Below are positions 29,578-34,848 of a stretch of 35,768 bases of DNA, in pieces (position 1 is the first letter of the stretch; every line of letters starts with the position of its first letter). The notes below the pieces were generated by a model that saw only the letters and a list, made by a program, of their open reading frames with translations, did no database searches and was not told the DNA's origin. Origin of the DNA: Oscillospiraceae bacterium (GTDB taxonomy: Bacteria; Bacillota; Clostridia; Oscillospirales; Acutalibacteraceae); assembly GCA_015065865.1 (NCBI GenBank), contig SVPM01000017.1, forward strand, positions 1 through 35,768. Reading direction: 5' to 3'. The position numbers and the translations under genes are program-made.

Positions 29578-29640
29578 GCTTTTTTCGCGGCGCTTTCGGC
29601 GTGTGGCCATCGGTAGTTTGGAAAATAGTGGATTTTGCAC

Positions 29641-29668
29641 TTGCTTTTTCAAAAAAATATGGTATACT
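29641..29668 (+). promoter_or_regulatory. Promoter of the riboswitch transcript
   Basis: TTGCTT (29641-29646) and TATACT (29663-29668) are 16 nt apart. The start would fall near 29675, a few bases before the aptamer. Confidence 0.7.
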
Positions 29669-29678
29669 ATACGATGAT

Positions 29679-29797
29679 AAAAGGGAGTAGCCGGTGCGAT
29701 ATGCGCGGCAAGCGGCGTCATGACGGGTAAATACCCCGCTGTTTGTCTGAAACGGCAAGACTTTTGCCGTGGTGTGCGCGGTGAAAGTCTTTTTTTG
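29679..29797 (+). promoter_or_regulatory. yybP-ykoY-like (Mn2+) riboswitch with attenuator
   Basis: The leader begins AAAAG-GGAGTAG and its aptamer ends GCAAGA-CTTTT. The outer AAAAG/CTTTT strands can pair as P1, as in the yybP-ykoY family, where the conserved GGAGUAG and GCAAGA follow and precede P1. Between them is an arm AGCGG/CCGCT (around 29711-29740) with an internal CGTCA and a GGGTA/TACCC hairpin, again the family layout. The 3' P1 strand overlaps the 5' half of an intrinsic terminator (29757-29797), so P1 formation should prevent termination and turn the gene on. Known members bind Mn2+. The family call is from remembered consensus, not a covariance search. Confidence 0.75.
29757..29797 (+). 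terminator. Riboswitch-controlled intrinsic terminator
   Basis: AAGACTTTTGCCG (29757-29769) pairs with CGGTGAAAGTCTT (29779-29791), 13 bp with two G-T pairs and a 9-nt loop, followed by a T-run. It ends 40 nt before the decarboxylase beta start codon. Confidence 0.88.
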
Positions 29798-29836
29798 TTT
29801 ATTCCCTTGTAAATTTAAAAGAAAGGTCGTTTCAAA

Positions 29837-30970
29837 ATGGAAATCATCGAAAAACTCGGGTTTCTTGTGGAAAACGTCAGTATGCTCGGCGATTGGCGTT
29901 ATCTTGCGATGTGGATCATCGGCGGCGTGCTGATCTACCTTGCCATCCGTCACGATATGGAACCCACCCTCTTGTTGCCGCTCGGTTTCGGCACTATCTT
30001 GGTCAACCTGCCGCTTTCGGGTGCGATCGGTGAGCACGGACCGCTCACGACCCTGTTTAATGCGGGTATCGCCAACGAGCTGTTCCCGCTGATCCTCTTC
30101 ATCGGTATCGGTGCGATGATCGATTTCGGTCCCTTGCTTTCCAATCCGAAACTGATGATCTTCGGTGCGGCGGCCCAGTTCGGTATCTTTGCTACCTTGA
30201 CGATCGCCTCGATGTTCTTTGACATCAAAGCGGCGGCCTCCATCGGTATCATCGGTGCGGCGGACGGCCCGACGGCTATCGTTGTGGCAAACCAACTGCT
30301 TGGTCCGACCAGTCCTATCACAGGTGCCATCATGGTGGCGGCGTATTCATATATGGCGTTGGTGCCGATCATTCAGCCGCCCGTTATCAAGTTGCTCACC
30401 ACTAAAAAGGAGCGTATGATCCGTATGCCGTACGCGCCGCAAAAGGTTTCCAAACTGACCAAGATCTTGTTCCCCATCATCATCACGATGATCGCGGGCG
30501 TTGTGGCACCGGAATCGGTGGCGCTGGTTGGTTTCTTGATGTTCGGCAACCTTATTCGTGAGTGCGGTGTGTTGAATTCGCTGTCGGAAACGGCACAGAA
30601 CGTGCTCGCCAACCTCATCACCATCTTCCTCGGCATTACCATCGCATGCCGTATGCAGGCAGAGGAATTCCTCAACCCCGCAACGCTGTTGATCCTCGGT
30701 CTGGGCTTGGTTGCGTTTATTTTCGATACCGCGTTCGGTGTGGTGTTTGCAAAGTTCTTGAACATCTTCCTGCCTGCAGACAAGAAGATTAATCCCATGA
30801 TCGGTGCGGCGGGCATCTCCGCTTTCCCGATGTCGGGACGTGTGGTGCACAAGATGGGCTTGAAGGAAGATCCGCAGAACTTCCTGCTTATGCATTCCAT
30901 CGGTGTTAACGTATCCGGTCAGATCGCTTCGGTTATTGCCGGCGGTTTGATCCTCGCGTTCTTTAAGTGA
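29837..30970 (+). CDS. Na+-transporting decarboxylase beta subunit (OadB/GcdB/MmdB-like)
   Basis: The 377-residue integral membrane protein matches the beta subunit of biotin-dependent Na+-pumping decarboxylases, which couples decarboxylation of carboxybiotin to Na+ export. It has about nine to eleven hydrophobic segments. NAGIANELFPLILFIGIGAM and GIIGAADGPTAIV hold the family's most conserved regions; Asp143 matches the essential membrane Asp (Asp203 in Klebsiella OadB). The C-terminal NVSGQIAS segment also fits. AAAGG precedes the ATG. A gamma-like protein follows, but no carboxyltransferase alpha or biotin carrier gene is nearby, and the leader is a probable Mn2+ riboswitch. It may pair with an alpha subunit encoded elsewhere or have a separate cation-transport role. 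Confidence 0.9.
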   Translation: MEIIEKLGFLVENVSMLGDWRYLAMWIIGGVLIYLAIRHDMEPTLLLPLGFGTILVNLPLSGAIGEHGPLTTLFNAGIANELFPLILFIGIGAMIDFGPLLSNPKLMIFGAAAQFGIFATLTIASMFFDIKAAASIGIIGAADGPTAIVVANQLLGPTSPITGAIMVAAYSYMALVPIIQPPVIKLLTTKKERMIRMPYAPQKVSKLTKILFPIIITMIAGVVAPESVALVGFLMFGNLIRECGVLNSLSETAQNVLANLITIFLGITIACRMQAEEFLNPATLLILGLGLVAFIFDTAFGVVFAKFLNIFLPADKKINPMIGAAGISAFPMSGRVVHKMGLKEDPQNFLLMHSIGVNVSGQIASVIAGGLILAFFK

Positions 30971-30990
30971 TAAGGGGAGGAAAAACAGTT

Positions 30991-31143
30991 ATGAATATTC
31001 AATTTCGACTTGACCAACTTCCCGAAAGCCTGACGGTTTTGGCGGCGGGTATGATCAGCATCTTTGCCGTTATCGGTGTCATCATTGTGGCAACGATAGC
31101 ACTGAACAAGATCTTTTCGGACGACAAGAAAACGGACGAATAA
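30991..31143 (+). CDS. Small single-pass membrane protein, OadG/decarboxylase gamma-like
   Basis: A 50-residue protein starts 20 nt after the beta subunit gene, with GGGGAGG before the ATG. It has one hydrophobic helix at about residues 14-39 (VLAAGMISIFAVIGVIIVAT), then a short polar tail (NKIFSDDKKTDE). Size, topology and position match the gamma subunit of Na+-pumping decarboxylases, an assembly factor that anchors the complex. The usual long Pro/Ala-rich and C-terminal His tail of OadG is missing, as in the short MmdD/gamma forms. It is probably co-translated with beta. Sequence alone is too short for a firm family call. Confidence 0.72.
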   Translation: MNIQFRLDQLPESLTVLAAGMISIFAVIGVIIVATIALNKIFSDDKKTDE

Positions 31144-33608: not shown

Positions 33609-33637
33609 TTGCTTTTTCGCGGTGTCCGTGATATACT
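33609..33637 (+). promoter_or_regulatory. Promoter of the permease gene
   Basis: TTGCTT (33609-33614) and TATACT (33632-33637) are 17 nt apart. Its -35 lies 20 nt from that of the divergent MBL-fold promoter. Confidence 0.75.
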
Positions 33638-33669
33638 CATTTTCGGTTTGTAAAAAGGAGGGGAGCGGC

Positions 33670-34848
33670 ATGCAGATGCATGGACAAGCGATGTATCATC
33701 CGCGGCATCGACTGCGTGTGATGGGGCATCACCTGCGGCAAGATGTCGGGTACATCGTCGATTTTTTTAAGCGCAACGCGGTGATGACGGTGGCGCTTTC
33801 GGCGGCACTGCTCACGATGGTGGCTGTTCCTCCCGATGCACAATATCTCGCCTATTTCGACGTGAAAACGCTCACCTGCCTGTTTTGCGTGTTGGCGGTG
33901 GTATGTGCGCTTAAAAATATCCGCTTTTTCTATATCTTGGCACAAAGAGTGGTGCAGTGTTGCAAGAATGTACGTATAAGCGTGTTGGCGTTGCTGTATA
34001 TTACCTTTATCGGGTCGATGCTGATCGCCAACGATATGGCGTTGCTCACCTTTTTACCGCTGGGGTATTTTGTGTTATCCGCGACAGGCAAGGAAAAATA
34101 CATGGCGGTCACCTTTATTTTGCAGAATATTGCCGCCAATCTCGGCGGTATGCTCACCCCGTTCGGCAATCCGCAAAACCTGTATTTGTACACCAAGTAC
34201 GCCATTCCCACGGGCGAGTTTATGGGAATCATGGCGGTGCCGTTTGCGGTGTCGGTGCTGTTGCTTACGCTGTGTGCATTGGTGTTTGTGAAGGCAGAAC
34301 CGCTCATGGTATCGGCAGAGGAAACACCCTTGCCGCGTGGGCGCACGGCGTTGTATCTTTTGCTGTTTGCGTTGTCCATCGCGATCGTGTTTCGCGGCAT
34401 TCCCTATTGGTTGGGTTTGGCGGTGATCCCCGCAGTACTGTGGTTTGCCGATCGCGAAGCGCTCAAAGCGGTGGACTATCCGCTGCTTCTCACGTTCGTG
34501 TTCTTCTTTATCTTTTCGGGGAATATGGCGCGCATCGACGCGGTGCGCGAGTTCTTCTCCTTTCTGCTCAGCAAAAGCACGTTGCTGTTCAGCGTGCTCT
34601 CCTGTCAGTGTATCAGCAACGTTCCGTCTGCTGTTTTGCTCTCACAGTTTACCGAAAACTACCGTGACCTGCTTCTCGGTGTGAACATCGGCGGTGCGGG
34701 CACGCTGATCGCCTCGCTGGCAAGTTTGATCACGTTTCGTGAATACACCCGCCACAACCCCCAAAAAACGGGTGCGTATATCAAGACTTTTTCGGCGTTC
34801 AATTTCGGTTTTTTAGCGGTGCTTACGCCGGTGTGTTTGTTGGTGTAA
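33670..34848 (+). CDS. ArsB/CitT-type (ion transporter superfamily) permease
   Basis: The 392-residue protein is an integral membrane transporter with about ten hydrophobic segments after a basic, His-rich cytoplasmic N-terminus of about 35 residues. The block IAANLGGMLTPFGNPQNLYLY is the hallmark re-entrant region of the ArsB/NhaD/SLC13 superfamily. The earlier LIANDMALLTFLPL is the matching first repeat. Substrates in the family are anions such as citrate, other dicarboxylates, or arsenite, or Na+ in exchange for H+; none can be chosen here. AAGGAGGGG lies 6 nt before the ATG. A hairpin terminator follows. It is the only clear carbon or ion permease in the window. Confidence 0.85.
   Translation: MQMHGQAMYHPRHRLRVMGHHLRQDVGYIVDFFKRNAVMTVALSAALLTMVAVPPDAQYLAYFDVKTLTCLFCVLAVVCALKNIRFFYILAQRVVQCCKNVRISVLALLYITFIGSMLIANDMALLTFLPLGYFVLSATGKEKYMAVTFILQNIAANLGGMLTPFGNPQNLYLYTKYAIPTGEFMGIMAVPFAVSVLLLTLCALVFVKAEPLMVSAEETPLPRGRTALYLLLFALSIAIVFRGIPYWLGLAVIPAVLWFADREALKAVDYPLLLTFVFFFIFSGNMARIDAVREFFSFLLSKSTLLFSVLSCQCISNVPSAVLLSQFTENYRDLLLGVNIGGAGTLIASLASLITFREYTRHNPQKTGAYIKTFSAFNFGFLAVLTPVCLLV

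Follow-up and report, generated by a model that had tools for sequence, protein, structure and literature searches.

The window analysed here, a stretch of 35,768 nt from an Oscillospiraceae bacterium, contains two consecutive genes on the forward strand, one for a homologue of the beta subunit of oxaloacetate decarboxylase (OAD) and one for a 50-aa protein resembling its gamma subunit, with a structured leader upstream of the beta gene (Table 1). No alpha subunit or biotin carrier is encoded next to the pair, in line with the initial annotation, which had described the controlled genes as beta and gamma without these adjacent partners. The leader has a folding energy of -51.7 kcal/mol (z = -4.27 relative to shuffled sequences). 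The probable promoter in front of it was placed by eye; a consensus promoter scanner made no call at 29641-29668.

Table 1. Features of the leader and of the two genes that follow it (positions in the window).
Feature	Position	Strand	Basis or remark
Probable promoter	29641..29668	+	-35 TTGCTT 29641-29646, 16-nt spacer, -10 TATACT 29663-29668; placed by eye
Aptamer assigned to the yybP-ykoY (Mn2+) riboswitch class	29676..29773	+	R1 76.4 bits; R2 75.7 bits; RF00080 16.3 bits, E = 0.0099; covariation
P1 5' strand ATAAAAG	29677..29683	+	Partner 29761-29767; P1 covaries in the alignments
L1 metal-site loop GGAGTAG	29684..29690	+	Present in every aligned leader (the search pattern demanded it)
L3 CGTCA	29716..29720	+	A29720 equivalent to the Mn2+-contacting invariant adenosine (A41, L. 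lactis)
GCAAGAC element	29755..29761	+	
P1 3' strand	29761..29767	+	Doubles as part of the terminator 5' arm
Intrinsic terminator	29757..29796	+	15-pair stem 29757-29791, then T run; excludes P1
OAD beta homologue of the alpha-less clade (W-type), 377 aa	29837..30970	+	PF03977, 8.3e-144; tree; AlphaFold model matching 6iww
Short gamma-like subunit of 50 aa with a single helix; AP linker and alpha-binding tail absent	30991..31143	+	NF040909, 20.6 bits

The L1 GGGAGUAG and L3 UCA metal-site elements and the GCRAGAC motif are all present in the leader, and the GGAGTAG, CGTCA and GCAAGA elements and P1 strands that the initial annotation had read there were each found in place. In the L. lactis riboswitch, N7 of the L3 adenosine A41 (UCA-A-U-U-C) contacts Mn2+ (PMC6754395). 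The UCA-AUAC of the L3 in our group of leaders resembles this UCA41-AUUC, and the contacting adenosine is kept (A29720).

Searched at the gathering level, the whole window gave no Rfam match. In an E-value search of 29600-29850, the yybP-ykoY model (RF00080) aligned from end to end and scored 16.3 bits (E = 0.0099) against a gathering score of 45 bits, and SSRC10 (RF02617) matched 29679-29796 at 19.3 bits. With one CRISPR repeat model, these made up the entire list at E <= 10, and the Na+-I (DUF1646) riboswitch and other ion riboswitch classes gave no match at E up to 10 in this interval. The 45 bits are a threshold set by the library and correspond to no biological property of the class. The verified mntP riboswitch of E. 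coli K-12 (L242, 2962-3058) scores 41.6 bits, under the gathering score; RF00080 gave approximately 24 bits on the leaders of a GDT1/UPF0016 gene (L216) and a P-type ATPase gene (L098). Because E. coli mntP is missed as well, RF00080 is too insensitive, its low score on the window is no argument against membership, and Rfam was rejected as the sole judge of class. SSRC10 was likewise rejected as a competing class, since its consensus has the same elements and its Streptococcus pyogenes member is a transcript just upstream of a "putative calcium transporter" gene (PMC3675131). That position fits a terminated Mn2+-riboswitch leader, and SSRC10 is probably a terminated yybP-ykoY leader and not a separate trans-acting sRNA. 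The family also matches L104 1502-1622 and L110 743-861.

Homologous leaders provided the basis for models of our own. Among 80 homologous beta loci drawn from public genome records, a strict pattern found the full motif directly upstream of beta in 28. A covariance model (R1) was built from 19 homologous beta leaders; its match at 29676-29773 is the only one in the 1.74-Mb genome, with a score that is partly by construction because the window leader was itself used in training. R1 matched 31 of the 80 beta loci (18 of these 31 being training members) as well as 11 sites found independently by RF00080 in other genomes of the window's order, and across 719 kb it matched nothing beyond these loci, the window and the 11 sites. 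The alignment of the 19 leaders has compensatory changes in all helices; double-changed cells number 58, compared with 22.8 in shuffled alignments. In a combined alignment of 42 sequences, double changes occur in 25 of 27 pairs and total 252 cells, against 81.7 in shuffled and 10-62 in slid controls; 91% of cells are paired, and the junction fold of P1, P1.2, P2 and P3 is supported. The model derived from this alignment (R2) located the E. coli mntP riboswitch in the right place (23.2 bits, E = 0.0004), as it did, weakly, E. coli alx (14 bits, E = 0.15). On sequence, structure and covariation, membership of the leader in the yybP-ykoY (Mn2+) riboswitch class, as proposed in the initial annotation, is near certain. 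While the Rfam check that it suggested was formally negative at the gathering level, the call holds on the homologous leaders, the covariation, the RF00080 sites and the E. coli mntP match. The ligand is presumably that of the class, Mn2+.

The genes that follow this RNA in other genomes are mostly those of transporters. R2 matched in 183 of the 295 genomes of the window's order, where no genome reached the RF00080 gathering score, and in 191 of the 399 genomes of a phylum sample; most riboswitches of this type in this bacterial group escape the Mn2+ model of Rfam. At 89 of the best R2 sites within the order, the gene that follows encoded OadB (31 sites), MntP (25), a P-type ATPase (23), a Ca2+-exchanger-like protein (4) or an unclassified product (6). 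These last six, named by eye from sequence, were Ca2+-exchanger-like (2), Na/Pi-like (3) and SLC13-like (1). The share of OadB among the top R1 and R2 matches is inflated, since OadB leaders made up most of their training material; one OadB locus (L094) was picked up by RF00080 before R1 or R2 was applied there. Targets outside the order were GDT1/UPF0016, MntP, P-type ATPases, a TerC-like protein, Ca2+-exchanger-like proteins and one OadB (L239). Six genomes carry the RNA before OadB and also before MntP or a P-type ATPase. The leader also occurs in Gemmiger formicilis ATCC 27749 (L057), where it scores 36.8 bits. The Na/phosphate-cotransporter-like genes (L152, L164, L166) and the SLC13-like gene (L148) downstream of the RNA are further, unusual candidates for Mn2+-regulated transporters. 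Between the latter and the CitMHS/NhaD-like gene downstream in the window (33622-34848), no similarity was found.

Each of the 29 leaders that match the pattern has a hairpin with a T run after it, and this hairpin overlaps the P1 3' strand; that of L067 is weak (-5.8 kcal/mol). In the window, the shared segment is 29761-29767, which bears out the competition between terminator and P1 noted in the initial annotation. This overlap points to an antitermination platform, for which the ligand, presumably Mn2+, is predicted to turn expression ON, as it does in L. lactis.

The protein under this control belongs to a distinct group of beta homologues. In a tree, these split into canonical (C-type) proteins and the window's W-type with SH-aLRT support of 100; the C-type set is small (n = 19) and consists of the best PF03977 matches. 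The window beta is approximately 50% identical to canonical betas and has a median identity of 77% to W-type members. Its AlphaFold model (mean pLDDT 80) matches 6iww at TM 0.78; its matches to NapA/NHE antiporters and CitS are weak. The NapA/NHE and CitS folds work as secondary transporters. D203, S382, N412, E40, Y229, N373, G377 and R389 (Salmonella numbering) are invariant in the W-type, and the first three are Na+ sites in Salmonella OadB. In that protein, R304A and N311A impaired decarboxylation and affected Na+ binding little (PMC7274780). Position 304 is R in 100% of canonical betas and S in 88-89% of the W-type, R being kept in 3% of riboswitch-linked members; position 311 is K in 66-80% of the W-type, with N kept in a minority of the clade. 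The window beta has E, S and N at positions 40, 304 and 311, respectively. Relative to the C-type, the W-type also differs at positions beside ion-site residues in sequence (G201A, S378A, P411V, A414S, V416Q and G418A), and these clade-specific changes suggest altered ion handling.

The gamma-like protein is reduced as well. In working pumps, the gamma subunit has an Ala/Pro linker besides its helix, and its C-terminal segment binds alpha (PMC7145394). W-type gammas have 40-60 aa and end soon after the helix, and an equivalent small ORF lies downstream of beta in nearly all W-type loci. The NCBIfam model NF040909 (OadG_rel_small) describes short OadG-like helix proteins of this kind, as an OadG-related small transporter subunit. 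The window's 50-aa ORF scores below its cut-off of 25 bits, and the family members tested straddle or miss this cut-off.

The initial annotation had suggested a genome-wide search for the alpha subunit and the biotin carrier. Both are present elsewhere in the genome, in which the canonical pump is split (L087, L088): one contig (C3) encodes an OadA alpha (PYC_OADA), a PF01039 carboxyltransferase and a biotin carrier, and another (C37) encodes a canonical beta with a full-length gamma. Across genomes, an alpha, a biotin carrier and/or a full-length gamma lies beside beta in 17 of the 19 canonical loci, a count that includes gamma; 10 of these loci have an alpha and/or a biotin carrier, and the remaining flanked loci have a canonical-type gamma alone in the stretch read. 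Beside W-type betas, the same search found such a neighbour in 1 of 111 loci. It found none in the 61 of these loci that bear the riboswitch; alpha, beta and gamma genes together behind this leader, which the initial annotation had named as a case against the orphan pair, were looked for and not found there. OadA occurs somewhere in 31 of the 34 genomes with a riboswitch-linked beta. A search for OadA-type alphas found none in G040 (99% complete), whose sole beta is the riboswitch-linked one, or in G132 (100% complete). The one W-type beta with OadA and a biotin carrier nearby (L070) is in an Erysipelotrichaceae genome; it has no leader and is possibly an intermediate form.

Taking these observations together, we favor, with somewhat better than even confidence, a reading in which an antiterminating yybP-ykoY Mn2+ riboswitch controls a divergent OAD beta and a tiny gamma-like helix, and in which the pair is a secondary transporter independent of alpha and biotin, most likely exporting Mn2+. 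At high cellular Mn2+, the aptamer would dock and stabilise P1 (29677-29683 with 29761-29767). Stabilised P1 would block the terminator at 29757-29796, and the beta/gamma pair would be made. The pair would then work without alpha and biotin as an elevator-type transporter that keeps the Na+ sites of OAD beta, most likely moving a divalent cation (Mn2+) out, with Na+ or H+ moving in as the drive. The export step itself is proposed through guilt by association with the other targets of the RNA. The recurrence of the RNA with the pair in dozens of related bacteria without the motor suggests that this half-pump has turned into a transporter that helps remove excess Mn2+. Some observations count against this explanation. 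E40, needed for carboxybiotin decarboxylation, is conserved, and OadA is encoded elsewhere in most of the leader genomes. An extra exporter is also not obviously needed, because MntP is present in 268 of the 295 genomes of the order, including that of the window; for the same reason, we rejected the idea that the beta replaces MntP.

In the main rival explanation, a normal Na+-pumping decarboxylase uses the pair as an alternative, Mn2+-regulated membrane part and receives alpha and the biotin carrier from other loci (contig C3). This explanation stays alive because E40 is conserved and OadA is widespread, and the alpha, PF01039 protein and carrier on C3 and the full set of invariant residues are in keeping with it. 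Nevertheless, we consider it unlikely. Against it stand the gamma, which has neither the alpha-docking tail nor the AP linker, the loss of Arg304 (and often of Asn311) and the dedicated canonical beta, which with its gamma already occupies C37. Alpha and carrier are moreover absent near 110 of the 111 W-type loci, and OadA was not found in G040, with its single, riboswitch-linked beta, or in G132. Of the two readings in the initial annotation, a beta/gamma pair working without alpha is consequently the better supported; a metal-regulated complex with alpha elsewhere fares less well, given the separate alpha-less clade, the changed decarboxylation residues and the absent gamma tail.

The invariance of all Na+-site residues, together with fold relatives among Na+/H+ antiporters and CitS, would also suit a Na+ (or Na+/H+) transporter that adjusts ion gradients at high Mn2+ and so helps other exporters without moving Mn2+ itself. 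This has a lower probability still, in that nearly all other identified targets of the RNA come from transporter families with Mn2+ or Ca2+ exporters and that the substitutions beside the ion-site residues suggest altered ion handling. A different proposal concerns the RNA, which might be a yybP-ykoY-like variant for another ion, such as Ca2+ or Na+. A streptococcal yybP-ykoY RNA binds Ca2+ besides Mn2+ (review PMC9495176), and L3 types differ among targets, with CGUCA in 26 of 32 OadB leaders, UCAACA in 34 of 35 MntP leaders and a mixture in P-type ATPase leaders. However, the CGUCA type also occurs before P-type ATPases and in the L. lactis Mn2+ structure (PMC6754395), and no Na+-riboswitch family was detected at E up to 10 in 29600-29850; we regard a switch of ligand as quite improbable. 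That the leader is a mere terminator or attenuator and resembles yybP-ykoY by chance would be in keeping with the lack of an Rfam match at the gathering level, but this idea is opposed by recurrence, the E. coli mntP match and model specificity, and the 252-cell covariation refutes it in practice.

Compared with known systems, the leader resembles the members of the yybP-ykoY class (RF00080; L. lactis yoaB, E. coli mntP and alx, streptococcal mgtA) in its GGGAGUAG L1, the UCA in L3 with the Mn2+-contacting A, the P1 switch helix, GCAAGAC, the terminator platform and exporter-type targets; unlike them, it scores low on RF00080 and has an OAD beta/gamma pair as its target. The Na+-I riboswitch (DUF1646 motif) is a similar case of an ion riboswitch occasionally associated with oxaloacetate decarboxylase genes, for instance before pycB in Acetivibrio cellulolyticus (PMC9337991). 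However, it is another RNA class, without a match in the window leader, and its decarboxylase is described as an active Na+-exporting enzyme (PMC9337991), whereas the window pair is alpha-less. With the decarboxylase Na+ pumps OadB, GcdB and MmdB (PF03977, 6iva/6iww), the pair shares the beta fold, the invariant ion-site residues and a gamma-like helix encoded with beta; it differs from them in lacking a neighbouring alpha or biotin carrier, in the loss of Arg304, in the changes around the ion-site residues and in a gamma cut down to the helix. The new part is the association of the riboswitch with the alpha-less beta/gamma clade, the riboswitch itself being of a known class. No report of a Mn2+ riboswitch with an OAD subunit was found among the open-access papers covered, although an earlier mention in subscription gene-association tables is possible. 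The only open-access paper found to name riboswitch, yybP-ykoY and oxaloacetate decarboxylase together concerns the Na+-I RNA (PMC9337991).

In evolutionary terms, a clade of OAD betas may have parted from the biotin-dependent decarboxylase and, retaining a gamma of one helix, evolved into a separate family of Mn2+-exporting secondary transporters under direct Mn2+-riboswitch control, a scenario on which we are evenly divided. If Mn2+ is exported, the known Mn2+ efflux families would gain a new one, and the clade would be a clear case of a biotin-driven pump subunit turned stand-alone transporter, which would bear directly on the coupling of Na+ to the reaction in the beta subunit. In many gut Clostridia, the proteins annotated as "oxaloacetate decarboxylase beta subunit" probably do not belong to a decarboxylase.

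Not all of the W-type clade is under Mn2+ control, since 61 of the 111 loci have the leader and 50 do not, and since the leader is patchy on the W-type tree, with 24 changes that are clustered more than in shuffles. No leader was found upstream of beta in the 19 canonical loci, and a search for other known RNAs before leader-less W-type genes returned nothing relevant in 18 loci. A TTAACA-N-(T/A)-rich repeat lies 80-150 nt upstream of beta in 6 of the 50 leader-less loci (L013, L018, L023, L029, L030 and L032), against 0.18 expected in shuffles, and may be a protein operator that takes the place of the riboswitch.
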